Of a DNA stretch of 64,000 nucleotides, positions 31,441-64,000 are shown piece after piece. Below the pieces are notes generated by a model that was not told where the DNA came from, searched no databases, and was given only the letters and a program-made list of their open reading frames with translations. This stretch comes from Terebella lapidaria (Eukaryota > Annelida > Polychaeta > Terebellida > Terebellidae): contig OX424562.1 of the NCBI GenBank assembly GCA_949152475.1, positions 3,968,001-4,032,000 on the forward strand. Direction: 5' to 3'. The stretch's first letter is position 1, and each line of letters opens with the position of its first letter. The translations under genes and the position numbers were made by a program.

Positions 31441-32591
31441 AACCGTGGTCCGCGTACCTGCCTCTCCTGCTGCAAGACCAGTGCTAGAACCGTGGTCCGC
31501 GTACCTGCCTCTCCTGCTCCAAGACCAGTGCTAGAACCGTGGTCCGCGTACCTGCCTCTCCTGCTCCAAGACCAGTGCTAGAACCGTGGTCCGCGTACCT
31601 GCCTCTCCTGCTGCAAGACCAGTGCTAGAACCGTGGTCCGCGTACCTGCCTCTCCTGCTGCAAGACCAGTGCTAGAACCGTGGTCCGCGTACCTGCCTCT
31701 CCTGCTGCAAGACCAGTGCTAGAACCGTGGTCCGCGTACCTGCCTCTCCTGCTCCAAGACCAGTGCTAGAACCGTGGTCCGCGTACCTGCCTCTCCTGCT
31801 CCAAGACCAGTGCTAGAACCGTGGTCCGCGTACCTGCCTCTCCTGCTGCAAGACCAGTGCTAGAACCGTGGTCCGCGTACCTGCCTCTCCTGCTGCAAGA
31901 CCAGTGCTAGAACCGTGGTCCGCGTACCTGTCTCTACTGCTCCGCGTACCAGCGGCTCCTGTTGCAAGACCAGTGCTAGAACCGTGGTCCGCATACCTGC
32001 CTCTCCTGCTCCAAGACCAGTGCTAGAACCGTGGTCCGCGTACCTGCCTCTCCTGCTCCAAGACCAGTGCTAGAACCGTGGTCCGCGTACCTGCCTCTCC
32101 TGCTGCAAGACCAGTGCTAGAACCGTGGTCCGCGTACCTGCCTCTCCTGCTGCAAGACCAGTGCTAGAACCGTGGTCCGCGTACCTGTCTCTACTGCTCC
32201 GCGTACCAGCGGCTCCTGCTGCAAGACCAGTGCTAGAACCGTGGTCCGCGTACCTGCCTCTCCTGCTCCAAGACCAGTGCTAGAACCGTGGTCCGCGTAC
32301 CTGCCTCTCCTGCTGCAAGACCAGTGCTAGAACCGTGGTCCGCGTACCTGTCTCTACTGCTCCGCGTACCAGCGGCTCCTGCTGCAAGACCAGTGCTAGA
32401 ACCGTGGTCCGCGTACCTGCCTCTCCTGCTCCAAGACCAGTGCTAGAACCGTGGTCCGCGTACCTGCCTCTCCTGCTCCAAGACAAGTGCTAGAACCGTG
32501 GTCCGCATACCTGCCTCTCCTGTTGCAAGACCAGTGCTAGAACCGTGGTCCGCGTACCTGCCTCTCCTGCTCCAAGACCAGTGCTAGAACC
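31424..32591 (+). repeat. 47-bp minisatellite starting in the last codons of FBXO33
   Basis: About 24 units of 47 bp with the core CTGCCTCTCCTGCTGCAAGA then CCAGTGCTAGAACCGTGGTC. The first unit supplies the final codons and TAG stop of FBXO33; the rest lies in the 3' UTR. Units differ at one G/C position (CTGCTG versus CTGCTC) and come in blocks, and three longer units carry an extra TCCGCGTACCAGCGGC segment (about 31930, 32190, 32360), giving a higher-order pattern. Confidence 0.95.
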
Positions 32592-33379
32592 GCAGTGTCA
32601 GAACAGCATTCAACCAGCGCTCGCTGTCTCACATGTTCACTGCTGTCTGCGAGATCCTTGATATGTCATCTAGTCAATAGTGGTAACACAGCATTGACCA
32701 TCTGACACCAGTACAATCTGTCACTTCTGTCAGAGTTTACAGTGTCATGGATATATGGCACTTAGTTGTTATCAAATGGACCACCAAAGTTGTTTACCCG
32801 GTAAAAGAATTGTTTTGTTGTGTTTCTCAGAAGAATACAAAGTCTTTCACTCTTCAGTGGTTTATATCAAATCTGTTGGAAGAATATTTCTGCCAATAGA
32901 TCCAAAACCATTGGCTTTGTTTGAAGAACATCAAAATCAAAGACTGTTGCGAACCAAGAAAAAAAGTATGAACTTGAAATCCTGCAACAACCAAATTCCA
33001 TCGCTCATCCTAGTCACCATCGTGAAACAAACTGAGGTGATCTTACAAGACAGTTGCTTTGAGTTGATCAACCATTTCATCACACACGCTTTCACCATCC
33101 AGAGTGCTTGTGTCAAATGTTAACATGTGACGTTGTTGTTTATCCAACGAGTGCTGTGATGAAGAGAGAGGAATGTGAATCCTGCAGATAGAAAATCATC
33201 AGTGCAAATCCTGTCAAAGACCATTGAATGCAGATATAAATTCAGCAAAATATGTGTATATTTCATTTGTTAACAGGAGAATTTCAAGTTGAATTATGTT
33301 GCATATATTTAGGCTTCATTAAGCATGGTGAATCTTACATATATGTATGAATTAGTTAGGATTGTGTGTTTTTTGAATG

Positions 33380-35164: not shown

Positions 35165-36350
35165 TTACCGGACAATACATAATAGCTATTTTGTCCCGTG
35201 GCCTTGAAAAAAAGGTCACTGGTCAAAATCAAAGTCATGAGATGCTCCTATATGTTCACAATTGATCACTAAGCAATGAATTCAAGAATAAGAGATATTA
35301 GTCATTATGTCCCATGACCTTGAAAATGAAATTAAAAGTCAAATTAAAGGTCTACAGAATATTCGGCATAAATCGGCATAATTATGTCCACAATTGAATC
35401 CCAAGCTGTAAAGTTGACAATAAGCAAGATATAATAATAATGAAAATGAAGTCAAAGGTCAATTTCAAGGTCATGACAATATTCAGCATATATCACTTCC
35501 TAAATGTCCACAATTGATTCCTAAGCTGAAAAGTCGATTATAAGTGAGATATTGGCCATTTTATGCTTTGACTTTGAAAATGAGGTCAAATATCAAATTC
35601 AAGGTCTTGACAATATTCAGCATATATCATTCCCTCCCTATATGTCCACAACTGAGTCCTAAGCTGTAAAGTCGATAATAAGCGAGATGTTAGCCATTTT
35701 GTGCCTGAAATTGAAAATGAGGTCAAAGGTCAAATTCAAGGTCATCAAAATATTCGGCATACACCATTTCCTATACGTCCACAATTTAGTCCCAAGCTGT
35801 AAAGTGGATAATAAAGGAGATATTAGCCATTTTGTGCTCTGACCTTGAAAATAAGGTCAAAGGTCAAGTTGAAGCTGATGAAAGTATTCAGCATATATCA
35901 TTTCCTATATGTTCACAATTGATTGCTAAACTGTAAAATCGACAATAAGCAACATATTAGCCATTTCATCCTGTGACCTTGAAAATGAGGTTAAAGGTCA
36001 AATTCAAAGTTATCAAAATATTCGGCATACATCATTTCCTATACGTCCACAATCTAGTCCCAAGCTGTAAAGTCGAAAATGAGGGAGATATTGGCCACTA
36101 TGTGCTTTGACCTTGAAAATGAGGTCAAAGGTCAAATTCAAGATCATCAGAATACTCGAAATATATCATTTCCTATATGTGCTCAATTGATTCCTTAGCT
36201 GTAAAGTCGATGATAAGCGAGATATTAGCCAATTTGTGCTTTGACCTTGGAAATGAGGTCAAAGGTCAAATTCAAGGTCCCGAGAATATTCAGCATATAT
36301 CATTTTCTATATGTCTAGTAAGCTGTAAAGTCGATAATAAGCGAAAAAAA
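35165..36350 (+). repeat. 134-bp satellite with AGGTCA direct repeats
   Basis: About nine diverged units of 134 bp, each with GACCTTGAAAATGAGGTCAA, a TCATTTCCTATATGTCCACA part and an AGCTGTAAAGTCGATAATAA part. Four units keep a perfect AGGTCAAAGGTCA (35720, 35854, 36122, 36256), which is a consensus DR1 nuclear-receptor element; the spacing between them is 134, 268 and 134 bp. Confidence 0.85.
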
Positions 36351-43905: not shown

Positions 43906-46456
43906 GCTGAAGTTCTTCAAGGACCTAGGCGTGGTACAGAAACCCCAAGCCATGCCCGACTCAATGTTAGTGTCTAATTGTAGGATCACGCATTCCACAC
44001 TCAATTTAAGGACTGATTGCACGTAACATACCAGTGACTGCAGTGAGGTGCTTTCCCATTGACTTATAATGTGAAAGTAAAGGTAACAAAATCACCAAGA
44101 CAATACAATCCCCTGACCTAAAACTTGGCTAGCACACACATCTAATCATGGATGATGAACCGAGACATGGTTTCATAAATAATATCATGGAAGCTGTGCA
44201 GTTTGATGATTAGATAAATCTTTTTATACGTTTCACCAAAACGAACATTCGTGTCTTCCGCTTGAAAAACACTGGTTGCTGCGTATATGTATACTTTGTT
44301 GTAGTCAAAATAATGAGAATATATAGGGCTATACTTTCTGTGAGATGAATACAATGAGCGGAATATTCATAATCCCAAACACCTTTGTGCACCCGAGTGC
44401 ATATCACCCGGGAGTTTTACCAGCATCACTAGCATCACCCCCTACTTTCTTTTCAGCATAAGGATGCTGATCAGTTACTCTATAAAATAGGTCATTTTGA
44501 AAAGATAATATTCCAGAAATAACTTTCAGATTTTGACTCTTCGTTACCTTACTGTTTGTAGCGGACTACGTTAATATGGTTTTGCGTTAATAAGCTAATA
44601 CTTTTAACCATTTCGAAATGTATGTGCGATCAATATAGTCCGATTAAAATTAGTAATAACTCATTTAATAGTAAGACGCTTTTGTAATAATGAAAACAAC
44701 ACGAATGAACAATGTGTTTTGTAGTATGTTTCACCAAACAAGTTGAAATACCATCCAACATCACATTTCACGTTCACAATAGCACGTCAATAAAAGTAAA
44801 TATTTCCGGGCCAGCACAGAATTCAGGGTACTCTTCAACTAAATGTATATGTATGTTACATTGATACACATTGTAACATGAAACTAGAACCATTGGTCCT
44901 GCTTACTGGGTATGATTCACTGAATTGTTTGTTAGCCATTAACCTGTTACACGTATGTAAATTATATAAGAGTTCAGGTGCCAGGAAATACATGTGAATC
45001 ACGTTGGAGTTATACAGATGTTTGTGACCACGAAGAACCAAATGTTACTAATTAACCGTTAGCGATTTTCTGCGTGAAACTATTCCTTGGCTACATGCGA
45101 GGCAAGCTTTACTGGTTCGATCTGTGACAAATGTCACTAGTCACATCAAGTTATGGTCCAGATAAGCTTGTGTGCCGACATGAATCCTGTGATGACCCGT
45201 AACTTTCCAGCAGTTTCAAATTCTTGCACTTGGGAGAATTCCACCAGCGCAAGATGCAAGGACACTTGAGACTTCAGTTATGACAACATCTAGAGCACAT
45301 CCCTCCGCACATTTTCCGTGAGAGCTGTACGGATTCAAACTGTATATATGCCACGAATTTTGCCACGGATACACGTATGCTTATTACGGCACTGACTAAT
45401 ATGTGACTCCAAAAAAGTTCGTAAGTACAAGAATCTGCAGATATTTGACAAATAGCTCACGCTTCTATGCATGTTTGTACATTTTTCTATGTACATAAGG
45501 ACAATATTTATGATACCAAAAAAGAACATTAAAAAAATAATACATCATTTGTGTCAGCATTCAACTGTGTATTCAACTTGTACATTGCTTTGAATTAAGG
45601 ATTTGGATTTATATGCCTGGAAACAGAATCTATTCGACATTAAAATTATTATCCAAAACTAAAACAACCAGCAAAACAGTAAAGGCACTTGACTAAACAA
45701 CAATTGCACATAAATATTTGTCAATGTTGGGATACACTGTTTCGTTTGCGTTCTGTTCATTACTGCTCAAGACAGTATCGTACATACAACGTATATCGCA
45801 ACGGTATTGTGTACCCACATCTATGGTGCGCATTCATGTAACAGTATACAAAATATATTAAGGATGGACTGCATATAAGGAACCGAAGCCTGCAAAGATC
45901 CAGTTTCCCCTTCACCTCAAATGTAAACATAATAAATGTCATAGAACCGGGAAAACTACGCGACCCATCTTCCAGACACTTCGTTAATTGACACTTGCAT
46001 ATAAACTGAGAGATTCGTTCATGAATATGATATCACGAGAATCTTACAAATTGATAATCAAGAGTATATTTATTACACGCGTCAGCAAAACAAAGGTTCG
46101 TACGTTCAGCGTGAGGAACAAGCTATTGTAGATAGGTACACATACGACTAGACCTTCTGTGAGAGTAACACACCAAGTGGAGCAGTTCATTTCCTTAGTG
46201 AACCCGAGCGCAACTCACCCGTGAGCTTTTTACTACTACTTTCATGTATTCTCGCACGCTGATTTGTTGTCATCATTGAGAGACCAAGTCAAGGAAAAAC
46301 GCATACCGGAAGCTTTTTTGTTTACTTAAATTCACATTCTGTTTTTCATAAAATTCACATGTTATGAAAAAGCCTCAACTCTGTAATAGCGGGCGAGAAA
46401 ATGCATATGTAGCTGTTTTGCGTGCGGTATGGGTTTCCCCGGCACTAGTCACTTTA
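43906..46456. other. AT-rich intergenic DNA with a diverged duplication
   Basis: No gene is supported. Segments 44142-44480 and 45975-46270 look like old copies of one another (shared CTTTCTGTGAGA, CACCCGAGTGCA/AACCCGAGCGCA and TCACCCG words). Short frames only. Confidence 0.35.
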
Positions 46457-46858
46457 GGCCAAAAAAAAGAAAAAGGTTTGTGTTTAGGGTTTCCCTACCG
46501 ACCCTAGGGCAAAGGCCCCTACCCTAACTGTTTTTTCACCTTTTGAAAAAAATTTTTTTTTTGGTTCTTGTTATTTTTTTCCCAGATTCTTCACCCAGTG
46601 TTCCATGTTTTTTATTGGCATAAAAGCAAATTTTGAACAGAAAGTAAGTAAATACAATACATGCAGGAACCCATTGCTTGTGCGTTTTTGGTACACGAGG
46701 GAGAAGTATAATGCTACACGAAACTACATACTAGTATATGAGACTACAGGCGTGCACGTGGTCACAAAATAGATCTAGTTTCAAAAAAAAAAAAACCTAC
46801 CTACCGACCCTAAGTTTTTGGGACCATGAAACCCTAAACACACACCTTTTTTTTGGCC
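46457..46858. mobile_element. 402-bp Harbinger-like MITE
   Basis: Inverted ends GGCCAAAAAAAAG...GTTTAGGGTTT, flanked by TTA (46454-46456 and 46859-46861). Subterminal CTACCGACCCTA words are also inverted at the two ends. No coding capacity. Confidence 0.85.
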
Positions 46859-47450
46859 TTATCCAGGGCTTGCCTAAAGGCTCAGTCTTAATGAGCCGAC
46901 TCGTCCTGGGAAAAACCCACACCGCACGCAAAACAGTGCCATATGCATATCATGGCAGTACAAACTAATTCTGCCACTCGGTATGTTATCAGTGTACCTT
47001 GGTTATTGAAAAATAAGTAGGAAAATGACATATATTGACGATTATCAGATATTTAACCATATGAACCGCTTGTTTAAAAAAAAGTCTTGGTTGGTGGTCC
47101 ATGATGATCGTAAATAACTACAGTAAATTCTGTTGTGGAATGGATGTGCGCTAATTCATGATTTCGTTACCTCTGTATTTAGGCCTACACTCTCAGTGAA
47201 GGGAGAGTTGGAGCAGTCCAGTTTCGGGGTTTTTACATGCAACCCAACCTTAACATTTAACCCAAAATTTCTCATACCCAGGCTAAAAAAATAACATTTC
47301 CTGAAATGTAAAAGAACATAATTGGTTATCAAAATGTACATATTGAACCGTGTTCAACGTGTGCTCAATGCATAAAAAACCTAAACCCCATATGTGCCCG
47401 ATAAACTCGAGACACCGGGTACAAGGCCGGCGGTCGTGTGGTGCCGGGGC
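46859..47450. other. 3' flank / UTR of the sushi receptor gene
   Basis: Downstream (minus-strand sense) of the receptor stop codon. No clear AATAAA was found on the minus strand, so the 3' UTR end is unknown. Confidence 0.35.
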
Positions 47451-47770
47451 CTACAGCATTTGGACCGTGTCGCCTGATGACACAGGTCCATCGTCCGCCT
47501 CTGCCTCCGGAGAGGACTGCTCTCCGCACAGATTGCGCTTGAGCCGTTTCCACTCCTGTCTGTACGCGGGCACGTCTAGAGCGAACAGCAGCCCGAACAG
47601 AATGACAAACAGCACGACCTCGGCGCCGCCGATACCCTGGGAGGTCTGAGAGAAGTCGGACTCCTTGAAGCCCATCCTCATCAGGTAACGCTCTCGGTCT
47701 GTCAGGTTAGCTTCCAGCTCTTCCTCTAGCTTATCGAGAATGCTTTTGTCTGACAGTTCCTCTGGATCAT
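47451..47770 (-). CDS. Last exon of the receptor: juxtamembrane, TM helix, cytoplasmic tail
   Basis: Begins DPEELSDKSILDKLEEELEA (acidic, probably helical), then a single hydrophobic span AEVVLFVILFGLLFALDV, a stop-transfer-like RQEWKRLKR stretch and an acidic tail ending SGDTVQML. This makes the product a type I membrane protein with its long N-terminal part outside. No ITAM, PDZ or NPxY motif is evident. Confidence 0.85.
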
Positions 47771-50700
47771 CTGTGGAAGCGGACAATGACGTCAAACACG
47801 TATATAATGAGTAGGTGTACATGTAGTCTATTGCGCTCGAACAATGATAAGGACATAGCACGTTTATAGTGGGCTACTACATGTATTGGCAGTTGGTCAG
47901 AATGTCGACGTTGGTGGTGCAAAGTCGAGGGCCAATCGAGGGCCAACGTTATGGTTATGTTGCAGATGTCTGACCCACGTTGTTCATCACCATTGGAACC
48001 AATGTCGAAATACAACCAAGATCCGACGAATGCCACCATTTTGTAAAATAAACACTTGAATACATGTGTGGTGAAATAATAGAATTGACAAGGGGCGTCA
48101 ATTATAGGAAGTATTTCTCAAAGTTACACGATGAAGTGATTTTCATTTCGTCTTTTTATTTATTAATATTGCACGAGAAATCAATCTCAGATTTTTGTGC
48201 TTCATTGAGCAAATATTGGCCCGATGTTTTTTTGTTATAATGTTGGGCCGATGTTGACGGCCAACGTTGACCCAATGAGCACCACGAAGTAGGCTCGATA
48301 TTGTATGCCAAACGTTGGCCATTTTTTCAGTGTTGGGCCAAAAAAGCATGCTATCTGCAATTCGAGACTCGACTTACTGTAAAGTTCAGCGACCCCACGA
48401 CATAAAGAGGTTTACGCCATTACTGGAGTGTCGCCGATCGTAAAAGCCCCCAGCATCTGTGCTCTATAACTGTGGTGTCACTACTTGTCTTGGTAATTTC
48501 TCAAAGTTACACGATGAAGTGATTTTCATTTCGTCTTTTTATTTATTAATATTGCACGAGAAATCAATCTCAGATTTTTGTGCTTCATTGAGCAAATATT
48601 GGCCCGATGTTTTTTTGTTATAATGTTGGGCCGATGTTGACGGCCAACGTTGACCCAATGAGCACCACGAAGTAGGCTCGATATTGTATGCCAAACGTTG
48701 GCCATTTTTTCAGTGTTGGGCCAAAAAAGCATGCTATCTGCAATTCGAGACTCGACTTACTGTAAAGTTCAGCGACCCCACGACATAAAGAGGTTTACGC
48801 CATTACTGGAGTGTCGCCGATCGTAAAAGCCCCCAGCATCTGTGCTCTATAACTGTGGTGTCACTACTTGTGTAGCCACAACTTGTGTATCTAGAAAGTG
48901 GTTGCGTGTTCACTGATTGACTCACATTTGCAGACTGGGTCGTCTCCTGTCCACAAGAGGTCGCTTGTGCAGTTTTTGGTGAGTTTGCCGGAGACCAGGA
49001 TGTTGTTGGGGTAACAGTAATAGTGTACGACCCGGCCCCGCGAGTACCGGTCGTACACAAACGTCGTGTTCGGGAACATCGGCGGCTCCGTGCAGTTCCT
49101 CACTGCAACAGGAACAGAACATTGTATTAATTAAAAACACATGTACATTTATGTGAAAATTGTCCTGTTCACATCGTTCGAGGAAAAAATATGATTCAAA
49201 TTCAAATCAGTAGATCAATCACACTTTAAAGATGAGTAAATTTTGTCTGAACCATTTCCCATGTTAAACAAATATGTGTGTTCAAATAATCATGCCAATT
49301 TCTTCATGATATTTGGGATGATTGTCCATGATAAATGACCAGCAACTTTTGCACAGAAAATAGAGGTATGTTTGTTTCAGATATTATTCAAGGTATGATG
49401 ACAATACACGTATGATACGTCATAGGAACTCGATAGGGTTGTGTTAAGAGGAGTCCGTACTTTCACAGTCGAGGGGTTGCCCTGACCAGTTGCCAGTGGT
49501 CTGGCAGGTCCGGGTGATGTCCCCGGCTACAGGCACGTGGTTGTCGGCGCACTTGTACGTGACCACCGTCCCGGGTGTCAGGGTATCATCTGCGTCCGAC
49601 TGCAACACCGACTGGACGCCAGGTGGCGGCAGCTGGCAGCTCACAGCTGTAGCGAACACGGTTAGCAGTCTTTGATACTTACCCGAGAAAATAGAGCCGT
49701 ATGTCGCGGGGAATTTGATTTGAAAAAAAAAATAGTACTAATAAGTACATGTAAGCCTACTTACTTTCAATGCATTCGAATTCCGGGCCGACCCACTGGA
49801 ACAGTTTGCAGTCGAGTTTCGATTTCGAGTCTGATGATGTTTTGTATCCGGGATGACAGGTGTAATTCACAAAATATATCCCATTGCTAACGTTGACTAT
49901 GGTTTCGGAGTTTTTGACTTCAGGGGGAGGATCACAGCCGCCATAGTACGGTTCATCTGTACAGGAGCAAAGGTCTTGTCAGTTAGCTTTAGTTATTAGA
50001 ACATTCATGTAGAGGAGCGTTAGGAGATGTGCACTGGTTAGAACTGAGACATACCAGAGCCGCCTCCGGTTGTGTTGTCGTTGTTACCACCGCCGCCAGG
50101 CTTCTTGCCATTCTCTGGAACACATGCACAGCAATTATATGACGTGGATATACCACACAAGCCACGTGGAGCCAGTCAGTGGTACATACCGGTATAGTAG
50201 GCCTACTGGGGGCTCACGGGTTGATTTACTGACCTATAGTCCAGGAGACCTCGTCCTGACAGAAGGGTACAGGCTGGTCCCAGGAACCGTTGCTAAGACA
50301 CACTGACTCCTTGGCGCCCACGAGCACGTAGCCAGAGAGGCAGAGGAACTGCACGCGGGCCCCAATGTCTGTGCCGTTGTCCATGGTGATGACCAGCTGG
50401 TCGTGCTGGCCCAGGTCAGAGGGGCAGGCCACAGCTACACAAGACGAACGATGACAGACGTGTGCCTCGTAAACATGGTTAATGATCAATATTGTGTATA
50501 TCGGGTACCGTAACCAGTCAATACATGGTTAATGATCAATATTGTGTATATTGAGTACCGTATCCAGTCAATACATGGTTAATGATCAATATTGTGTATA
50601 TCGAGTACCGTATCCAGTCAATACATGGTTAATGATCAATATTGTGTACATCGAGTACCATATTCAGTCAATGGAAGAGATGGACCCGTAAGTGTGTAAC

Positions 50701-53700
50701 TTGTGGATATTGTGGTGCCGTTATTCATTTGAAATAAACCTCTTGATTAATTATTTTTCAAAGATCCAATTATCTATGAAACAACGTCACATTATCAGTT
50801 ATCCCATGTTTGTTCACGGAATACGGAATTATATCTACGTCTAGCTACCCGTATCCCACGGACAGCTAGACGTTGATATAATTCCGTATTTCGTGAACAG
50901 ACATGGGGTAACGAATTCATCACTGACTAAAAACGACACTCGCAAAGGATATGGGAATTCCTATCGCAAGTGGCACGTGCCAAATAAGATATTCAGGATA
51001 CGGGTTTATATCACCGTGCTGATTGGCCAATCAAGAGTCTCGAATTTGTCTTCAATCAGTGATAAAGTCTAGGCCTATTTTGCGTCAACAAATTTAGGTT
51101 CACACATCGAAAAATAAACTTGTACATTGGTGTGACAACATGTTGAGGAGCACGTCAGAGACGCCTGTTATCAACGAAGCCTTACGAGTGCAGACGAGAT
51201 CGTCCCCGCTCCAGTCGCCGGTATTCTGGCACGTGCGGCTGTAGTTACCGCTCAGATACATGTGACTGGCCCGACACGCACACGTCACCACCGTACCGAT
51301 AGTCGAGCCCGACCCAGCGTCGCACGAGGTTGTCACGTGCTCCGGCGACTTGCTGCACGTGATCTCTGTCCAGACAAATGATGGACTTTTGCTTCCTTTT
51401 CGACACAGACCCTCTCACTTTTTTCCGCAACTCAGATGCAATGAATATTGTAATTTGTATGATATTGTATTTGTCTATACCTGTGCACTTGAGCATGTCT
51501 GTCATGGTCCAATGGTAGTTGGCATCGGTGCATGTGGCGAAGGGTTGACCGTCGACGAAGGCGTAGTTAGGTTCACACTGCAGGTCGACAGTGGAGCCGA
51601 CACTGGTCTTCTGACCGGCGCTGACCACCAAACTGACTCCGGGACCTAGCTGGTCCAGGTCAGGCTCAGTCAGAGTCGGAGTGGCGCACGATACTGAAAT
51701 ACACAGCTACTAATGTATAACTGCCATGCACGTGAATCTATTTGGTATAAATATCACTTTCAGACGACGTTGCTGGTTGGATCCCACGTCATGCAGTGAT
51801 GACATCCTGACCACTCACACTGACAGTCGAGTGTGACGTCAGTCCAGGTGCCTGATGACTGACAGGTGCTTGTGACGGTGACGACATTCGCTCCATTACT
51901 ACAGTTGTACACGGCATTGGAGCCGAACGTCGTGGTGGTGTAAAAACGATTGGCGTCAGTCAACCCCGGCGGAACATCACAGTCAACCGGCGTGGCTGGC
52001 GGGCAGATAGATCAAACTCGTGTCAGAAGACCAGACTCCACACAACAAATGCATATCTCCAGTGAATTACTGGTTTTTTGGGGTAGATTTATTGAGTTTC
52101 ACAAACGAATGAATAAGAATGAAAAGGTGATTTCGATGACTGCTTCGAACCCTACTTTTGTGTTGTTGAAATCATTGGTGTCGGCAGGCATACATCATGA
52201 ATTCAAGTATTGATGGATATACATGTATATCATTACCGCCCACACTGATCTATGAATCTAATCACCAAACTATATATCTTGGAGACGTTTATTGGTGACT
52301 TGAACAGTACTCACCGTTGACTGAGGATTGCACGTCGTAAATGGTGTCGTTGGAGTTGGCCACGAGCCATTGCTCGTCTTCCGTACATGTGACAATCAGC
52401 TGTCCCACCGTGATCTCATAGCCCACCTCGGCAACATAAGCCGTCGTGTCCCCCACGTTGTTCCCTCCATGGATCTTCACCGTGTTCGTTATATTGGGAG
52501 GGTCACTACACCCCTTTTCTAAAAGAGATCAATTTAACTTGGAGTGAATTTGTTAATACCGACACGAAAATCCGATGGGTGCAAAGTGGACACATATCTG
52601 TCTTAAATTGTTTCTGGAGATGTCTACTTTGGCAGGCGATGGGCGAGCCGAGGTCGAGCCACGTGCCATTGACGTGGCACTGACGCCGGAAGACAGTCTG
52701 GTTGGGGTCGCGGTAGCCGCTCTCACATCGGTATTCAGCGTAGGCGTCCACACTCGTGGTAGTGGTCGTCAGTTCCGTGTGGTTGATCAAGGCAGGGTGG
52801 CCACACAGGATCTCTACAAACAGTCACCAAAAACCGCACTGAATGGTCTGTACATGTACAATCCATCACTTGAATCCTTTGTCTGTATACTGCTTGTGTG
52901 ATGCTTGTGGTGTCACTGACCTGTACACTGCAAGGCATTCCTTGTCTGTATGTTGGTTGTGTGATGTTTGTGGTGTCACTGACCTGTACACTGCAAGGCA
53001 TTCCTTGTCTGTATGTTGGTTGTGTGATGTTTGTGGTGTCATTGACCTGTACACTGCAAGGCACTCCTTGTCTGTATGTTGGTTGTGTGATGTTTGTGGT
53101 GTCACTGACCTGTACACTGCATGGCACCCCTTGTCTGTATGTTGATTGTGTGATGTTTGTGGTGTCACTGACCTGTACACTGCAAGGCACTCCTTGTCTG
53201 TATGTTGGTTGTGTGATGTTTGTGGTGTCACTGACCTGTACACTGCAAGGCACTCCTTGTCTGTATGTTGGTTGTGTGATGTTTGTGGTGTCACTGACCT
53301 GTACACTGCAAGGCATTCCTTGTCTGTATGTTGGTTGTGTGATGTTTGTGGTGTCATTGACCTGTACACTGCGAGGCACTCCTTGTCTGTATGTTGGTTG
53401 TGTGATGTTTGTGGTGTCACTGACCTGTACACTGCAAGGCACTCCTTGTCTGTATGTAGGTTGTGTGATGTTTGTGGTGTCACTGACCTGTACACTGCAA
53501 GGCGACCCCCGACCACTGTCCGTCTTCTTTGCACTCCCGTGATGTGTCGCCAGCTGAGTACTCGTATCCAAATTGACACGTGTAGTTTGCCATGGAGCCA
53601 TATATTGTGTCGGTGTGGGTCTCGTTCGCGTTTGTGCCACCCAAGGGAACTCCGCAGTCGACAACTGCGCACCAGAAACAGAAAGAAACCCAATCCAGTC

Positions 53701-53862
53701 AAATATCAGTCGCGATGGATTACATCTGAAATTGTCCTTTTGGAGTATCATACATTCACAACAATCTATCGCGACCAACTCCGCATATTCACTGCACGCA
53801 CGAGGCTGCATGTCATATTGTTGGTCTGTCATCCACAAGACAATAATCGATGAAGTACGGAT

Positions 53863-53907
<45 letters not shown>

Positions 53908-56900
53908 AGAGAGACTCACTGTTGCAGGTGGGTTCGGCTTGGGACCAGTTGCCGTATATGGTGCAGGTGGAGACGACCTGTAGGTCGCCCGTGTCCATCA
54001 CGTAGCCGAGGTTACAGATGAAGGTCAACTCAGTGCCGTAGAAGTAGTCCCCCGCGGGCAGTGTGGACGAGGCTCCCGCCGGGATGGTGTACGTATCGTT
54101 CCGGGCTGGCGACTGGGGCGTCGGACCCTCACAGAACACCGCTGTACCACAAGTGGTAGAATTGGATTAAAACGTCTCAGCTTACAATGAGTGCAACTAC
54201 CCATATTGAAATATAAGAAACCATTTTGTGGTAAATACAAGTAAGTACTGAATAGACCAGGCGTGCACAGTAACGTGTGTTTTCCAAAGACTTTATTATC
54301 CATCGTGTTCATTTTGGACTTCATAGGCTGAAGAATTATGGTATTGTGGGACTAGACTTGTCCAGATCTAGACAACACGTGAGATTGCGGGTTTTCACCT
54401 GTGCAGTTGTACGGCTCGCCGCTCCAAGTCTGGTCGGCCTGACACACTCGCGTGTCGTTCCCGCTAAAGTACATGTAGCCCAACATGCACGTGAACGTCT
54501 CCGTGTCCTGGTAACGCATGTCAGGATCACCCACGTGCGTCACCCCCTCAGCAACAGGCATCGGACACCGGATCTCTGCCAAACAACAGAGAGCCTCGTA
54601 AGAGATCCAATGTTATTTAATTGGTAATATGCACTACTTTACAAAGTTGTACCAAATTAGGTTCACACTCCAGCGTTATGCACTTTAATAATATATTGAA
54701 ACATGATTTAAATTTATAATTTAGAATGTGGCATGACACTCATATGTTTTCCAACATATGACACGTCATATGTTGGACAAGACGCAGATCATACTTTCGC
54801 AGATTTGGAGGCGGTCAAGGGACCAGGTCAGGTTATTCCGGCAGGTGAGGTTGTACATGTCGGTGTATGGGTCGGCGAGCAGTCCCGCTGTCAGGTTGTA
54901 TCCCTCCCCACAGTACACAGGGCACGTGGCGTCTGGAGCCACCCCCACCTCCACGCACAGACTGCTGTTGGTCCGCAGTATGTCATCCTCTTGCAGCAGA
55001 CAGCGCTGGGCTGACAAACATACACACGAGAATATATCATCCGCGCCTAATGGTGGGATACACGCGCCAGGGAGGAGAGGACAACAGGGCAGACAATGGC
55101 CATCCACCCAATAGATAACAGAGTCTAGACGTCTTTCAAAGATGGAGTGAGTTTTTATGTCGGGTAAAGAAATATCGTGGCAGGTATATATATTGTCAAG
55201 AAAAAAATGCTTATCATTAAGAGATCTAGATGTCCAATGTCAACATTTAGCATACAGTCCTTGGATTTCGCAAAAAAAGCTAGATAATGTAATAGAAATT
55301 GATTGCAATTCATTGTCGAGAATTTACATTTTTGCTCGGTAGGTACCTATAAAACGTCATCCACTTCCAAATAATATTATGGCACATATTTGAACACGAC
55401 TAGTCATACATACGTGTATGGAATGCACATTCGCACCACATTATTCCATATATAACAGACACGTGCTACAAATAAACTAAATTCCATTATGCTGTACCGT
55501 GTAAACATTTAGGCAATTTACATATCACGAAAAACGTACTGCGTGTTCCAACTGAGACCCAATAGCAGAATTCACAACAACATGATTTTTTATGCATTTA
55601 AATTATCATCATCATTTATACATTATTATCATCACGTCAGATATGCAGCATTAGGTTACACACAAAACAGTGATAATCCCACAATAACGCCCCCACCAAA
55701 TGAGAATAATTACTACTTATCCATTCGCCTACATTCGCCTAGCAAAGACAAAAGCTGAAGGTAGTAGCCTACCTCTACTGTAGACGGAGCGGGCGCTGAT
55801 GTCTGCACTATTGAGAGACGGTCCACACTTGGCCGCTGTCACTGTGTCGAAGCAGTCTCTGTCACAGCTGCTGTCTGGGAGGCTCAGATACACTTGTGGC
55901 AGATCCGTACACAGACACTGGTTCTGGATCCGGCTGATCCCGCTGTACTGCGTGGAGTGGGGCTCGCACACCCGTAAACAGTCCTGGATCAGGTCAGGAA
56001 TGGCGCCGTCTACTGGAGGCTCCAGCCACTCCGTGACGAGGTCCGGCTCGAATGTCCAGGCCGTACCGTGGGAGGAGTAGCAGCCCCAGCTCTCCGCACC
56101 TGTCAGGAGACAACAGGCCGCGTGGAAAACCAGTAACGGGCGGAAATAACCGGACAGAACCAAGAACTTAGGGGAGCGACACTCACCGCGCAGTACGGTG
56201 TCCTCCCTGAACATCCTGTTCTCCTCGACAAGAGGCAGGGTCGGGTCGCAGGCCTGCAGGTAGAAGTTAGTGATGCCGTTGACGCCGCACTGGTCGTTGT
56301 AGAGCATGCACATGTGCAGCAGCTGGTTGTAGATGCGGAACTCGCCGTTGCTGTCGAAGTCCAGGCTCCAGACGCCCCAGGCGACGTTGTAGCAGCTGGC
56401 ACTGCCCGGGAGGTAGTCGTTGTTGATGATGTCCACGTCCAGGCAAGCGAATGTCTGCTGGTTGATCAGGTGTCCGCTGGTGTCAAGCTTCCAGCGTATG
56501 CCCTGAACACCAGCAGATGGGAATGCACAGTGGTTATGTAGAAGTAGCCCATATAAAGCAGATATCGGATAAATTCGCTGTCTATGATTTTAATACGTTT
56601 GTACAAGAGCCTACCGTGTGTGGATCTGCTGGATCATCGTAGTCGCAGGGAACTAGCTCCAAGAAGGCCGTGAAACAGTGCGGCTGTGTATCGTTGTGGT
56701 AAATTTTCATCCAAGGCGTCTCTGCTGGAAACAAAACCGTCAGTGCATACAGATTTATACGGCTGCACGCCGCTACATGACCTATATCTTCCTGTCTGGA
56801 AAACGTGAGACTGACCAGCCTGGTACGGTATGAGATGGGCCTCCACGTCATACAGCCAATCATCCATCCAGACGGCCGTGAACTCCCGGTCCAGGCCGAC

Positions 56901-59900
56901 ATCTGTCTCCACTCCCCGCTCCACCTTCACGTACACACAATTCGTGTCATTGCCCGTGTCCCTGAAGACGACAACGCCCTTGCCCTGGATCGCCAGCCCC
57001 ACGAGGTCACCCTTCTCAACGGGCATCCAGTCCTCACGTGGGAGCTGCAAGGTGACCTGCCCGTCCGACGTCACCAACAGCTCCGTGGAGTTGACCAGCT
57101 GCAGCTTGTCGTCCATGGAGCCCTCGCGCCACACCTGACAGTGCACGGTGGCCTGGCCCTCTGTGCGGTAGTGCTCGAGGCTGGCGTTGATCGACCACCC
57201 CACCACCAGACTCCGCTCCATGATGGGCCGGTCGGGGTTCGGGATGATCGTCACGTTCTCGGCAAGATCCACGTCATATACGTCATAGCCTGCGTAGTCC
57301 GTGTCATTGTGACCCCAGTCTTGTGTCGTAAGAGTCCACTGCTTCATGGCTATGGGGAGACAAACCATTACCACGTATAGTACACAACGCTGCCTTCAAT
57401 ACGGGATTTTATAATTATGTATCTGCAGATGTCGGAACATGTACATTATTCATGTGGCTGTATCAATGGCACATGGTGGCCGCGCTAGGCTGCGTACCTG
57501 GGAAGACTTCGATCTCGCAAACTGAGACCATGTCAGGGACGTCACTCCACACAGTGACGTAGGAGCTGGCGCGGGTGACGCGGCAGTACGCCGTGACGGC
57601 TCCCGCCGCTTGGTACGTTAACGTACACTCATCGGACGCAGTTACGGCAATTGCTGTCGCGGGCTCCGTCGACGTCACTCCCACGCGAATAGCTGTCAAT
57701 CCGCCACACATACGTTAGTCATACACCGACATCACTGGTAATATATATCGTGTACACGGATATGCAGGGAATCTATATACAACATTTATTTGTAGGGCCT
57801 ATCTTGATAATATAGTCCTACGGTGATAGCGCACCTAGTCTAGGCCTGTATTCTGAAAGCTTACTCACCCTTACACTCATTGAGTCTCACCGCACACTCA
57901 TTGAGTCTCACCTCATCCTCATTGAGTGTAAGGTCGGTCTCACCCTCCAAGCATTCAAAGACGTCACTCATACTTAATTGAGTGCATGATTTTGAGTAAA
58001 GCTTGAGGAGAAGGTACACCTGCATTTAGCCTTCCTCACCTCGATAATTTGTGTACAATCATGGTCGTTGGGCGATCAGAGACTTGCACATATGCATTAT
58101 TTTGGAATGTATAATGGTAGTCACTTGAGAAGAGAGTTTAATTTTGACTTCGATAAGGTCAGCGACGAGCAGTTGCGGATACGGTACAAGATGACAAAGG
58201 ACACCTTTCAGGGGCTATTGATACTAGTATCCCCAGCTATAGAAACCACATGATTAGCGAAGATATCCAATTCATATAGACATAAAATTATCGTTAGCTC
58301 TACGTTTTATGCTACAGGTACCTTTCAACTTCATATTTTCGAAATAAACAATGATGTATTTTGCACAGTTTTGAACTTTACAATATTAGAGTGTTCATGA
58401 TTACGATATTAATCATAGTAATTCCTAATGAATCAGCATTCTTGAAAAATGATTACAAATTTTGAAATCAATCTCGGACCCGGGAATTGGTTAGACACTA
58501 TATTTTGTCGGCCATCTTGCATTCATGTAGGTTTATATCGTTGCATATAATGTTATTTTCGGGAGATATCATGGAATATATTCTGTTGCAATTAACAATT
58601 TGGTGGGTGATTTGGGAAATTGACACCTTCTATATCACTGTATATTAAGACTGAGTGTCTAGTTGGCTTCCTCAGGTGAAAAAACTTTTGTCTCGATATG
58701 TTAAACATTAGGAGAATTATAATGACCATATAATACGGTGGTCATCTTAGATTTGTCGTGATATTTCTGGAATCGGTCAATCTTGCTTTGTATTATAGCT
58801 AAAATCAATATACATCTACTCGGTCTGAAGTGTACCAACTTTTACCACCAAACTCCCAATGATTTAACATATCTGCCTCACTAAAGCTTCCCTCCAGTGA
58901 GTAACACTTGAGTGTCCTCTGTGAAGACCAAAAGGGCTAAATCCAACTGAGTGTGAGCAATACCTCAGAAAAGCGAGGTTGACCTTAAACTCACACTCCA
59001 GTGCTCCTTGAGCCCCACTTGAGTATACCTCACTTGAGTGTGAGTATATGAGTGTCTAGTGTCTAGTTGGCTTCCTCAGGTGAGAAACCCTAGGAATGGA
59101 ATCTTTTGTCTCGATATGTTAAACATTAGGATAATTATAATGACCATTTCAATATTTGGTCACGAGCGACGGTGGTCATCTTAGATTTTTCGGAATCAGT
59201 CAATCTGGCCTTGTATTATGCTAAAACCAATATACATCTACTCGGTCTGGATTGTACCATTTTTTTGGCGCTTTCACCACCAAACCCACCATTATTAAAC
59301 GTATTTGCTGCACTAAAGTTTCCCTCCAGTGTGCAACACTTGAGTGACCTCAGTAGTTCACGTGCCGTCACTGTGTGATTCTGATGACCAACAAACATAC
59401 GCCCAGTATACACCTTTTGTTTAATATGAGTAATACTCCATTTATAACTCAAATTACTCAGATAACACAATAGGTGTATGTTTGTTGGTCACCAGAATCA
59501 TACCGTGACGACACGTGACTTGCAGGCCCTATACATCAGAAAAGCGAGGTTGACCTTGAACTCACACTCCAGTGCTCCTTGAGCCCTGCTTGAGTCTACC
59601 TCACTTGAGTATGAGTGGAGGATGAGTGTGAGTGAGCTTTCAGAATACAGGCCTATGTTCAGTAGCAAGTGGATTTATGCTATGCACCAGTACATGAATC
59701 AGTACCTGGCAAGGTAGCGTTGGTGGCGGCCGTGCACGAGCTTTCTTCCACGGACACCTGGTTGACAAGGACGGCACCGACGACGACAGACTCGGGTAAC
59801 TCGACCACCTCGAACAGGTTAGACTGGCACTGACACTTGACGGGGTCGTGGGTCTCTGTCGTGAAGCCGTCCACGAGCACAGCGGCCGCCTGCCGCGGGG

Positions 59901-61982
59901 CGTGCAGGGCCAGGTTCTTCTGGGGCCCGTCCACTGATGGCGACAGAACACGGTTCACAAACATACCCCGGTGACTTTATTCACGAAAGATGTATAGAAC
60001 ACTCTAATCTGACCTCCGTTGAGATCCCTACCGTTCTTATACCGTATCCACACTGCCAAAGAATCCGCAACTGAGTCTAAAAGTAAAGCATGTACGTGTT
60101 CCATCATTCCTCATAATTCATCCGGTGACAATCAACGTAAAATCCAAATGTTTCCATAAATTTTTACCATGTCATGTAATAGGAAATAGGATGTATCTCT
60201 TTAATATATTTCATTGTATATTTCAGGTATCTCTCAGCGTTACACCTGAACGTTATTTATAATGGATTCTGGGATTTAAATTAATTGGATCTTTCAAATT
60301 GTGTAGTGTCACAGGCTGTTGTCATGGAGACGTGCCGGTGAGGCTGGTTGCTCGGTCCTCCCCGCTAGAGTAGTAGATCCTGGGGTTTCCGTCCGCGTAC
60401 CACGTGCAGTCCGAGGTAGCCCGCATCGCCACCGTCAGCCAGCCCGTCCTGTTCAGATAGCAGCTCGTCCCGTCGTCTACCACCGCATCAAACAGCGACC
60501 GATAGTTCACCCCGTCCATCTCACTGCAAGCCGTAACCGTTGGTGCAACACACTATGTAAGAGTTCTTATACTTAAGCAAACTGCTATATTTTCCCCCAA
60601 CTTTGTGCGAGAAAAATCCAAGGCGCCAGCATTCGAAGTAAAAAATGTGTACTAGTACATCCATGTACATGTTTGTGTACCAAATGTGTTCAGGATAACG
60701 ACACATGTATAGTTTTGTACTCACTAGAAGGACATGATCCTGTTAGTGACTGAGGGGTCGTTGATGTCGTTGTACGAGGAGTCTTTGATATTGTCGACGG
60801 TGTACCAGTCGGTCGTCTCTGAACACTCGGCATTAAAGGTAATCCAGGCTACCTCACGGCCATCGGCGTGTACAGACACTCGGGCCTGTCACAGATAAAC
60901 AGGAGGTCAACAGACAAACAACAACAGACAGACAGGCGTGTACAGACACTCGGGCCTGTTACAGATAAACAGGAGGTCAACAGAGGAACAACAACAGACA
61001 GACAGGTGTGTACAGACACTCGGGCCTTATACAGATAAACAGGAGGTCAATCGACAGACAGGCGTGTACAGAGACAGGCCTGTCACAGATAAACAGGAGA
61101 TCAACGAGAAGACAACAACAGACAGGCAGGCGTGTACAGACACTGGGGCCTGTTACAGACCAACAGGAGGTCAATCGACAGACAGGAACAGATAAACAGG
61201 CGTGTACAGACACTCGGGCCTGCTACAGACCAATAGGAGGTCAAGCGACAGACAGGAACAGATAAACAGGCGTGTACAGATACTTGGGCCTGCTACAGAC
61301 AAACAGTAGGCCAACAAACAGGCGCGCACAGACACTCGAGCCTGTTACAGGCAAACAGGAGGTCAACGGGGAGACGTCATGGACAGACGCATAAGAATCA
61401 ACGTACAAGGACAACAGACAGAAAACTACAGACCAATGTATGGTATTGATTAAACATTAATGAAACCAATATTTGATGATTACGAATTGTTTATTCTGTG
61501 AGATCAAAAACAACGCGTACATGTAGCCGCAAAAGAGTTGACATTGGATATATATAAAAACTAAACATGATGGTACAGATTTTAAAAAATATATATATTA
61601 CAGATAAAAAAATGTATACCGAAATGTGTTAACTGCACTGTACATGTATATTCGTTTTTATTATTATTTTTTTTTGACGCTGATATATTTCACACTACAT
61701 GTATAATATTGTTGTATGAACTGATATCGCTCGTTATAACGATAAGCGAGAAGTATAAAAGTTTCCCGACCTCAGTGACTACGAGGTCTTCCCAGTGGTT
61801 GACTAAGTAGGATTTCTGATGTTTGACGCACGAGTCGTTTACGTGCAATGGATCCACTTGACCTAGTTCTGGATCTAGCCACATCTGAGTCGGATCGCCG
61901 GAAACATCCGAACATATCCGGAACACCATCTCCCATGGTGACCCTGTCGTGAACAGTTCAGTCATGATCAATGGTTTGGAAG
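47451..61982 (-). CDS. Multi-domain sushi/WSC/fucolectin-like type I membrane receptor, 24 exons seen, 5' end missing
   Basis: Exons 5' to 3' (plus coordinates): 61771-61982, 60725-60885, 60336-60523, 59706-59933, 57498-57692, 56816-57349, 56615-56724, 56187-56502, 55773-56099, 54795-55010, 54399-54575, 53920-54141, 53488-53664, 52628-52813, 52315-52518, 51819-51995, 51481-51693, 51186-51365, 50234-50434, 50055-50114, 49765-49956, 49461-49646, 48926-49102, 47451-47770. They total 5159 bp in one frame (1718 aa plus stop). Nearly all introns are phase 1. Order: unnamed N-terminal module, fucolectin-like fold, unnamed glycosylated module, ricin-like trefoil, WSC, 13 sushi-like modules, Gly/Asn linker, TM helix, about 38-residue tail. 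It is likely a cell-surface carbohydrate-binding adhesion or recognition protein. No named orthologue is recognised. The first exon, start codon and signal peptide are not in view. Confidence 0.85.
48114..48871. repeat. Recent 375-bp tandem duplication in a receptor intron
   Basis: 48114-48488 and 48497-48871 read as identical, separated by 8 bp (period 383). The unit contains CCAACGTTGG/TTGGGCCGATGTTGACGG words also present at 47880-48000. Confidence 0.92.
48926..55010 (-). CDS. Sushi (CCP) array of the receptor, 13 exons plus a linker exon
   Basis: Each exon encodes about 58-73 residues, starts and ends in phase 1, and most show the sushi pattern of four Cys with a conserved Trp and Gly (for example TCQTTGNWSGQPLDC, VCQADQTWSGEPYNC, TCQNTGDWSGDDLVC). 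The exon at 52315-52518 has only two Cys and is a degenerate module. The first (54795-55010) has six Cys. The 60-bp exon at 50055-50114 encodes a Gly/Asn linker (GGGGNNDNTTGGGSG). Sushi modules usually bind proteins or glycans at cell surfaces; no complement-specific signature is visible. Confidence 0.88.
50471..50671. repeat. 50-bp tandem repeat, four units
   Basis: Unit AACATGGTTAATGATCAATA, TTGTGTATATCGAGTACCGT, ATCCAGTC; starts at 50474, 50524, 50574 and 50624. It ends 37 bp from the 3' splice site of the exon at 50234-50434 (on its intron side). Confidence 0.92.
50798..50912. mobile_element. 115-bp fold-back element
   Basis: Two arms of about 48 bp (GTTATCCCATGTTTGTTCAC... and its complement) around a loop of about 17 bp. 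The target duplication is not clear. Confidence 0.65.
52890..53503. repeat. 63-bp minisatellite built on an exon end and its 5' splice site
   Basis: Ten units, with GGTGTCACTGAC at 52909, 52972, 53035, 53098, 53161, 53224, 53287, 53350, 53413 and 53476 (GGTGTCATTGAC in two). On the minus strand each unit reads GCCTTGCAGTGTACAG then GTCAGTGACACC. The right-most unit overlaps the real sushi exon end at 53488. The period is a multiple of three, so several frames stay open across it. Confidence 0.95.
53867..53904. repeat. (GA)n microsatellite next to a splice donor
   Basis: A GA/CT run begins a few bases into the intron after the donor at 53919/53920 (minus-strand A|GTGAGTCTCTC). Confidence 0.9.
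55773..56099 (-). CDS. WSC-domain exon of the receptor
   Basis: Reads SWGCYSSHGT, then QDCLRVCEPHSTQYSGI, then NQCLCTDLPQ, then SSCDRDCFDTVTAAKCGPSL and SVYSR. This is the eight-Cys WSC pattern (WxGCY, C..C, YxGI, QCxC, C..C, CG, VY) known from polycystin-1, Kremen and fungal wall sensors, a presumed carbohydrate-binding fold. Confidence 0.8.
56187..56724 (-). CDS. Ricin-like beta-trefoil exons of the receptor
   Basis: Two exons (56615-56724 and 56187-56502) joined in phase 0. Trefoil-like repeats are visible: HCFTAFLELVPCDYDDP, IRWKLDTSGHLIN, TFACLDVD, VWSLDFDSNGEFRIYN, MCMLYNDQ, YLQACDP. The CL(D)V, QxC and W/xLDxxGxI elements suggest a ricin B-type lectin fold. Moderate confidence; not verified structurally. 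Confidence 0.55.
56816..57349 (-). CDS. Large 178-residue exon of unknown fold
   Basis: Begins MKQWTLTTQDW and contains several N-glycosylation sequons (NDT, NVT, NAS, NST, NDT), alternating hydrophobic strands and few Cys, consistent with an extracellular beta-sandwich. No family is recognised. It sits between the fucolectin-like and trefoil modules. Confidence 0.7.
57498..59933 (-). CDS. Fucolectin/F5-8C-like domain split over two exons
   Basis: Exons 59706-59933 and 57498-57692. The first starts GPQKNLALHAPRQAAAVLVD, matching the NLALxxPA..AVDG opening of fucolectin/F5-8C folds; the second ends SSYVTVWSD...VSVCEIEVF, matching the usual xYVxV...LxLCEVEVY close. Together about 140 residues, near the family length. 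The intron between them is almost filled by a Harbinger-like transposon. Confidence 0.7.
58068..58253 (+). pseudogene. Harbinger-like transposase N-terminal fragment
   Basis: A 61-codon frame; the part from about residue 19 resembles the start of PIF/Harbinger nucleases (acidic/aromatic segment followed by RYxMxxxTFxxL). The catalytic core is absent. Confidence 0.45.
59355..59526. mobile_element. About 170-bp inverted-repeat element nested in the Harbinger-like copy
   Basis: Arms GTTCACGTGCCGTCACTGTG...ACCAACAAACATAC and the complementary GTATGTTTGTTGGTCACC...GTGACGACACGTGAC face each other and the pairing continues toward the centre. No target duplication was fixed. Confidence 0.6.
60336..61982 (-). 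CDS. N-terminal module exons of the receptor (three exons)
   Basis: Exons 61771-61982, 60725-60885 and 60336-60523. Text includes SPWEMVFRICSDVSGDP, SYLVNHWEDLVV, VHADGREVAWITFNAE, SSYNDINDPS and GWLTVAMRATSDCTWYADG. The module looks like an extracellular beta-rich unit directly ahead of the fucolectin-like fold; I have an unverified memory of similar unnamed modules in other invertebrate proteins. The donor of the third exon (G|GCACGT at 60336) is not GT, and the donor of the first (GAG|GTCGGG) is weak, so these junctions are less certain than the rest. Confidence 0.65.
60865..61375. repeat. About 70-bp minisatellite built on an exon start and its 3' splice site
   Basis: Eight imperfect units. 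The word TACAGACACT (or a variant) recurs at 60871, 60941, 61011, 61067, 61135, 61205, 61275 and about 61327. On the minus strand a unit reads CTGTNACAG then GCCCGAGTGTCTGTACACGC, which is the acceptor and first codons of the exon at 60725-60885. Units are joined by CAACAACAGACAGACAGG spacers. Confidence 0.92.
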
Positions 61983-62006
61983 CTTTAAATATTTGCATCA
62001 ACAAAA

Positions 62007-62372
62007 TGGGTGCGTTTCATTTGTACGGATCACCAACGTGATCCCGAACAGATCAGATTTATGATCCGTAGACCGAAAAACAACTATAATTCCACAATCT
62101 GATCAACCATTATTGCTGGGCAATAACACTGTTAAAATAAAAATATTAAATAGATCTATTCTATATATTATATTATTCATCCAGAAGTGGTATGCCCATT
62201 TCACATGTGACTGCATTGGGATCAGCATTTGGGATCGGAGAAATCAGTCTTCCATGCTGATTTTTCTGATCCCCAATGTTTGGGATCATGTTCCTGATCC
62301 GTACCAATTCTTGCAGGATCATGTTTGTGATCTGGGATCAGATTTGTGATCCGTACGAATGAAACGCACCCA
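62007..62372. mobile_element. 366-bp inverted-repeat element next to the first visible receptor exon
   Basis: Ends TGGGTGCGTTTCATTTGTAC and its near-perfect complement (27 bp, one mismatch). Inside are many GATCC/GGATCA words. No coding capacity; target duplication not clear. Confidence 0.8.
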
Positions 62373-63795
62373 TATTAAAAAAAGGTGGTTAAATAGAACG
62401 TTCAAACTTTCATCGTAAAATGAGCCATATCACTTGCAAAGACAACACAGTTCGGTCACAGTTCATCCATATAATTTTATTGATCCATTGAAGGATGTAG
62501 AAATCAACTTCAACCTTGACACGATCGCTCGTAGCATTATATAAACAACCAAAAATCCGAAGAGAATATACAGTGGAACTTGGAGTCAGTGAGTTATGTC
62601 TCACCTTGGACGTGTTGACTCAACAGGAGCAATCCACCGAGCAGGAATAAATATGTCGGGGTCATGCCTTACAATTCACGTGTACCTGCCGAGGGATACA
62701 GATCGTGCATATAATATAGATAAGATAAATGCATATTGTCACACAGTTTCTGAACGGGTTTTTTTTTTAGAAATGGTCAAGGTGAATTTATTTACTTAGG
62801 CCTATAAATATCAGTGGGGTGGGAATAAGATTATGGCGCCGTATGGTATAGCAAGGCTCGCTCCTGTTCAACGGGTGTTATTCAGTAGAAACTGTACACG
62901 TCAATGACTCTCAGGGAGAGAGCACATTTGAGTCATCCCCGGTAATATCATCAGCGAATTGGATTAGTTTGGAATGACAAGAATTAATTGAGAAAATGGC
63001 TAAAGATAATACTTGCCCATTGATATTTGAAAGTCAAGCCCTTAGAACTAAGTTGCTCTAATCCAGGTAGCCTACATAATTTAGCATCGAGCTGGGTATA
63101 TATTGCTCATGACGTCAATGGACAAGATTATTTTTATTTATTATTCATTATGTAATAGGTGCTTTGTCGGACGACGGTTCCACTTAGTTGACATTGAAGA
63201 GTATAACATATTGTAGTACAGAGAGTGATCCTCGTGGAAGCGTGTAGGTATATTACATCGTGTATCTCATTTGGCCATAGCAGCACAGTAGACAATACAT
63301 GTTTTGCAAAAAACCACTAGGGGTGCGATATCGGACTTAATCGCCTATTGCTGAAAATGCTATCGCACGACCCCCAATAATTTTTGTATTGTGGGCTTCG
63401 GGTGGGTAGATATCACGGCGTATTGGTGTCTGAAGCCCATTGTAACGATTTTATCATGGAGCATTCTATGATGATGATGACACTCGATTTGATATCAGCA
63501 GCTGTTCTCCGCTACGACTCGAACAGATACTGACATTACTTCTCCTGTATCTCACAAATATACATAAACATATTCTAGTATATTATTCACTTGGTGGTAT
63601 TCTCATTGTAAGGACACACTTGATTAGACGATTTGTACCACGTGACAATCCTACATACGCTATATTGGACGGCAAAAATGTATATGACGATGTTGTGCTT
63701 ATCAGCCAATGAGAGCGCGTGTGACATGTGGGTTTTCCCCACTGTTGGTTTCACCCACCAAAAAAGAACGTGGCTTTTGTTCGTTTTGACTCCGT
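62373..63795. other. Right-hand non-coding stretch
   Basis: Presumably an intron or the 5' flank of the receptor gene. Short frames only; no exon with good splice sites was recognised. Confidence 0.35.
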
Positions 63796-63796
63796 A

Positions 63797-63955
63797 AACA
63801 ATATAGCAAATGTTGGGTGTTGAGGGTCGTCCAATATACAGTTTACGGGATTCAGAAATGTCATATTGACCTCGGCTGACGCCTCGGCCAGTATGACATT
63901 TCTCCATCCCGTAAACTGTATATTGGACTCCTCAACATCCAATATTTGTATAATA
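63797..63955. mobile_element. About 155-bp fold-back element
   Basis: A long near-perfect palindrome: the inner arms CCAATATACAGTTTACGGGA...AAATGTCATA pair with their complement around CTCGGCTGACGCCTCGG, and weaker pairing continues outward (TGTTGGGTGTTGAGG / CCTCAACATCCAATA). Confidence 0.75.
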
Positions 63956-64000
63956 TATATGTTGATTTCGTGTTGTGTTGGAAAGAATTCGGAAAGAATC

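Follow-up and report, generated by a model that had tools for sequence, protein, structure and literature searches.

How is an exon spliced when its 5' splice site is repeated ten times in tandem, and how does its gene tolerate such an array? The question is raised by a stretch of 64,000 nucleotides from the annelid Terebella lapidaria (assembly GCA_949152475.1, contig OX424562.1, positions 3,968,001 to 4,032,000; hereafter the window, numbered from its first letter), in which a 63-bp minisatellite begins inside the end of an exon coding for a sushi module and runs on into the following intron. A sequence-only reading had drawn attention to this tandemly repeated donor, and we find it to be real: the unit comprises an exon end with its donor, and nine further donors follow every 63 bp. 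Of the ten donors, the first alone keeps the reading frame. We think it quite probable that the array goes back to a chance duplication straddling the junction, which expanded and is tolerated, and which is probably spliced from the exon-proximal donor.

A minisatellite across an exon-intron junction

The array is read here on the minus strand. Tandem Repeats Finder gives it a period of 63, with 9.9 copies, 96% matches and a score of 1152; its lower end lies at 52879 and not at 52890, as had been supposed. When the local 1.6 kb (52401-54000) was resampled 100 times with a first-order Markov model, the top score was 65, and 40 of the 100 resamplings contained any array scoring at least 30. With units counted from 53503 downward, unit 1 starts 16 bases inside the exon 53664-53488; it holds the last 16 bases of that exon and the donor CAG/GTCAGT. 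The same 16 bases recur in units 2-10, exactly in seven of the nine and with one change each in units 3 and 7. The exon portion was therefore part of the duplicated segment.

The copies lie head to tail and carry substitutions: units 1 to 10 differ from the consensus by 1, 0, 3, 0, 0, 2, 1, 2, 1 and 7 bases, respectively (17 in total), so that seven of the ten deviate from it. Units 2, 4 and 5 equal the consensus and are mutually identical, and the seven changes of unit 10 fall in the copy most distant from the exon. A change in column 21 is common to units 3 and 8, and one in column 62 to units 3, 8, 9 and 10. Identical interior units together with a diverged unit 10 look like products of slippage or unequal exchange in which the outer unit is old.

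We rejected a dispersed origin of the unit, as the best-scoring blastn matches outside the array in the window extend over just 12 bases (E 0.39). An RNA family was likewise rejected as the identity of the array: Rfam gave no match at gathering thresholds in the whole window. Two units fold with -28.0 kcal/mol, compared to a mean of -23.6 (s.d. 7.3) in 200 Markov resamplings, hence without excess structure, and a search against a phage collection found no match, as expected. Two stop-to-stop open reading frames (ORFs) of 420 and 279 codons cross the array on the minus strand, the longer one at 52735-53997. Open frames come easily when the unit length is a multiple of three, and neither of the two is the frame of the sushi modules; on these grounds we rejected a protein-coding array; the 420-codon frame is probably a by-product of the unit length.

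The sushi gene model

Stop-to-stop ORFs of at least 45 codons were listed for positions 46000-64000. From these 189 ORFs, 20 were picked for Pfam, and 11 contain a Sushi domain (PF00084) above cut-off (8/10 and 3/10 in two batches). The gene model has 12 sushi-type exons between 54575 and 48926, with all boundaries predicted from sequence. Candidate GT/AG signals were listed in phase 1 alone, the usual phase of sushi exons; the phase is thus imposed on the model, not found by it. No Pfam match was obtained for the modelled exon 51995-51819. Three donors (52315, 51819 and 50234) are uncertain, having further in-frame GTs close by. In an ORF at 47451-47873, we noted a hydrophobic stretch that, judged by eye, resembles a membrane segment.

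The predicted exon end at 53488 is placed by the reading frame, the Pfam Sushi match and the GT/AG signals. TG(C/T)ACAG/GT, which includes the last cysteine of the sushi module, also terminates two other modelled sushi exons of the 12 (at 54399 and 51481); it is therefore probable that the exon end served as the template of the repeat. The 12 modelled introns span 109-1155 nt, and four are short (109, 115, 118 and 125 nt). The array takes up most of its intron, whose single-unit length is near those of the four short ones; the array probably turned a short intron into a long one. It has a complete sushi module on either side, consistent with an intron of old age.

Table 1 Features of the junction-spanning array and its flanking exons (window positions).
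Feature	Position	Strand	Basis
Sushi exon, 177 nt, ending ...GCCTTGCAGTGTACAG/GTCAGT	53488..53664	minus	PF00084 E=8.1e-7 for the containing ORF; acceptor and donor read from sequence
Last 16 exon bases, in 10/10 units (8 exact, 2 with one change)	53488..53503	minus	Unit alignment
63-bp x 9.9 tandem array; unit of 16 exon-derived and 47 intron-derived bases	52879..53503	minus	Tandem Repeats Finder, unit alignment, Markov control
Nine decoy donors (base immediately preceding each GT: 53425, 53362, 53299, 53236, 53173, 53110, 53047, 52984, 52921)	52920..53425	minus	Sequence
Array-bearing intron, 674 nt (107 nt with one unit)	52814..53487	minus	Gene model
Non-repeated intron end, 60 nt, with modelled 3' splice site	52814..52873	minus	Gene model
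Next sushi exon, 186 nt, acceptor GTTTGTAG/AGATCC	52628..52813	minus	PF00084 E=5.8e-7 for the containing ORF; sequence signals

Ten donors and a single stop

All ten donor copies are present, but the context is not the same throughout: eight are identical over nine positions, and two, whose last exon-like bases are 53362 and 53047, read GTCAAT. By U1 pairing and by a donor frequency table, the real donor ties with seven of the nine decoys at -8.8 kcal/mol and 8.59 bits; the two weaker decoys reach -5.6 kcal/mol and 4.78 bits. In a ranking of the 12 modelled donors, the real one comes second when scored by U1 pairing and fourth with the frequency table.

The reading frame is kept by the first donor only. 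Each of the nine decoys would yield an identical early end, CTGQ and a stop, and so would intron retention, because the stop sits in the first unit. It follows two codons after the last Cys-Thr of the module (GGT CAG TGA), in agreement with the sequence-only reading; the module would stay whole and the downstream part of the protein would be lost. Use of different decoys had been thought to alter the C-terminus of the module in various ways. With one stop common to all nine, the decoys do not diversify the protein.

An acceptor-like CTTGCAG had also been ascribed to every unit. It occurs in eight of the ten, but unit 3 reads CTCGCAG and unit 7 CATGCAG, and in the nine decoy units this CAG is preceded by only 5-6 pyrimidines out of 16, compared to 9-12 at the 13 modelled acceptors. 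The 7-nt pseudo-exons proposed from it, running from the CAG to the donor, would indeed shift the frame and lead to a stop in the next exon, but given such weak acceptors we rejected them. Finally, constraint on the decoy donors was sought in units 2-10, where one of nine donor columns varies, versus nine of 54 other columns; this comparison, which has little power, gives no sign of maintenance or selection.

Origin of the array and competing explanations

We propose that a chance tandem duplication struck a 63-bp segment lying across the donor of an ordinary sushi exon, and that the repeat grew to ten units through slippage or unequal exchange. The array would be spliced out together with the intron, probably from the exon-proximal donor, the sole one to keep the frame. 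At most, the extra donors would then give rise to mis-spliced RNA at a low level, with an identical premature stop in every case. Such an array may be tolerated because its first donor is intact and its extra copies are intronic: the exon, its donor and the reading frame would survive in the upstream copy, and a donor would remain beside the exon even if units were later added or lost. If a 63-bp segment is placed at random in the modelled span of 6.8 kb, it covers a donor (any of the 12) about 11% of the time (selection ignored), so a single junction-spanning array is no great surprise. Most likely the array is silent, probably without a function in its own right.

Several points weigh against this explanation. 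Eight donors are equally strong by sequence, and donor strength cannot show a preference for the first. With ten units and 17 differences in all, a modest constraint on the donors would be missed. Besides, first-copy preference is no rule: according to the passages available from PMC2630376, the more distal of two duplicated sites is favoured in the 844ins68 allele of human CBS.

It is possible, though unlikely, that the extra donors act as regulatory decoys. U1 binding at several identical sites would slow or alter splicing, and a share of transcripts would acquire the early stop, ending in decay or in a truncated form lacking the sushi modules further on as well as the likely membrane segment. 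The equal scores of eight of the ten donors and the stop shared by all nine decoys speak for such a role; the donor columns, within the little power of that comparison, are without the excess conservation that would support it.

We give somewhat less credence to an assembly artefact in copy number, in which a shorter or longer real array would have been assembled with a wrong number of units. A perfect 383-bp double copy about 4 kb away makes this conceivable, but the deviation of seven out of ten units from the consensus argues against a simple stutter of one unit. Slightly less probable still is the idea that unit number determines how much functional sushi membrane protein is made, identical donors competing so that a length-dependent share of transcripts runs into the common early stop and a variable minisatellite tunes the protein among individuals. 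Least credible of all, the units might serve as recursive (ratchet) splice points removing 63 nt at a time, or as intron-gain units with new introns between them: ACAG/GTCA stands in all ten, but the AG directly before the nine decoy GTs follows 7-8 pyrimidines out of 16, below the 9-12 of the 13 modelled acceptors, if by a small gap to the weakest, and ratchet use of these AG/GT sites is unlikely.

Other repeats in the window

The modelled introns between these exons contain three more array regions (50473-50698, 48113-48871 and 53865-53914), none of them overlapping a modelled exon. The first contains a 50-bp x 4 array at 50473-50672 (a 100-bp period row extends to 50698), which stops 39 nt short of the sushi exon modelled to start at 50434, directly upstream of a 3' splice site. 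The CT microsatellite at 53865-53914 (minus strand) is found right behind a donor, 6 nt from the last base (53920) of the preceding modelled sushi exon. The 383-bp double copy at 48113-48871, in the last modelled intron, is 100% identical between its halves and represents either a very recent duplication or an assembly artefact. Elsewhere, at 31411-32592, a 47-bp unit recurs 23.7 times with higher-order periods and with stops in all six frames, and the consensus of a 134-bp x 6.5 array (35441-36315) contains AGGTCA-like words.

Comparison with known systems

The sequence-only reading knew of no described minisatellite templated on an exon end. The human CBS gene provides one, and its original report, by Lievers et al. 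in 2001, is said to have discussed splicing at the repeat. This 31-bp variable number tandem repeat (VNTR), c.1444_1467+7(16_21), consists of copies of an exon end and the donor behind it, with substitutions among the units (PMC2630376); we read its name as 24 exon and 7 intron bases in 16-21 copies. Its location is listed as exon 13-intron 13 in PMC1395315.

Tandem duplication has met splice junctions in other ways as well. As far as the excerpts of PMC2630376 go, CBS 844ins68 is a tandem duplication across the intron 7/exon 8 junction from which normal mRNA is still produced, and it offers a precedent for coping with duplicated junctions such as those of the annelid array. Since the distal site is favoured there, and the junction is that of intron 7 and exon 8, it is no proof that the first donor wins here, where in contrast the exon-proximal donor alone keeps the frame. 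Tandem duplicates bearing splice signals, like those of the annelid, appear in excerpts on potato RdRp (PMC4974935) and on fission yeast SPOG_01682 and SOCG_00815, whose gained introns consist of 24-nt tandem repeats (PMC3629103); for the SPOG_01682 intron in vivo, the authors of the latter call for further study. Intron gain by tandem duplication would leave a new intron between duplicated AG/GT signals that relatives lack; in the annelid, AG/GT recurs across the units. Unlike the potato and fission yeast cases, the annelid array seems to have enlarged an existing intron, with no new intron shown. In the sections available on prawn lectin, earthworm metallothionein and the dopamine transporter, a junction-spanning array is not described; other precedents may exist, most subscription journals being outside the search.

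As in the CBS VNTR, the annelid unit holds the 3' end of an exon and a 5' splice site, in head-to-tail copies with substitutions. It differs from that VNTR, with its 31 bp and 16-21 copies varying among people, in being 63 bp long and mostly intron-derived, and in belonging to another gene, here known from one sequence with 9.9 copies. With 16 exon bases and the donor inside a unit repeated at 96% matches, the array is, as read from its sequence, another case of the described kind, a junction-spanning minisatellite in another gene. Next to CBS, it is a candidate for a second minisatellite seeded on the end of an exon. It also offers a natural system for testing how the spliceosome picks one of several identical 5' splice sites in the same sequence surroundings.
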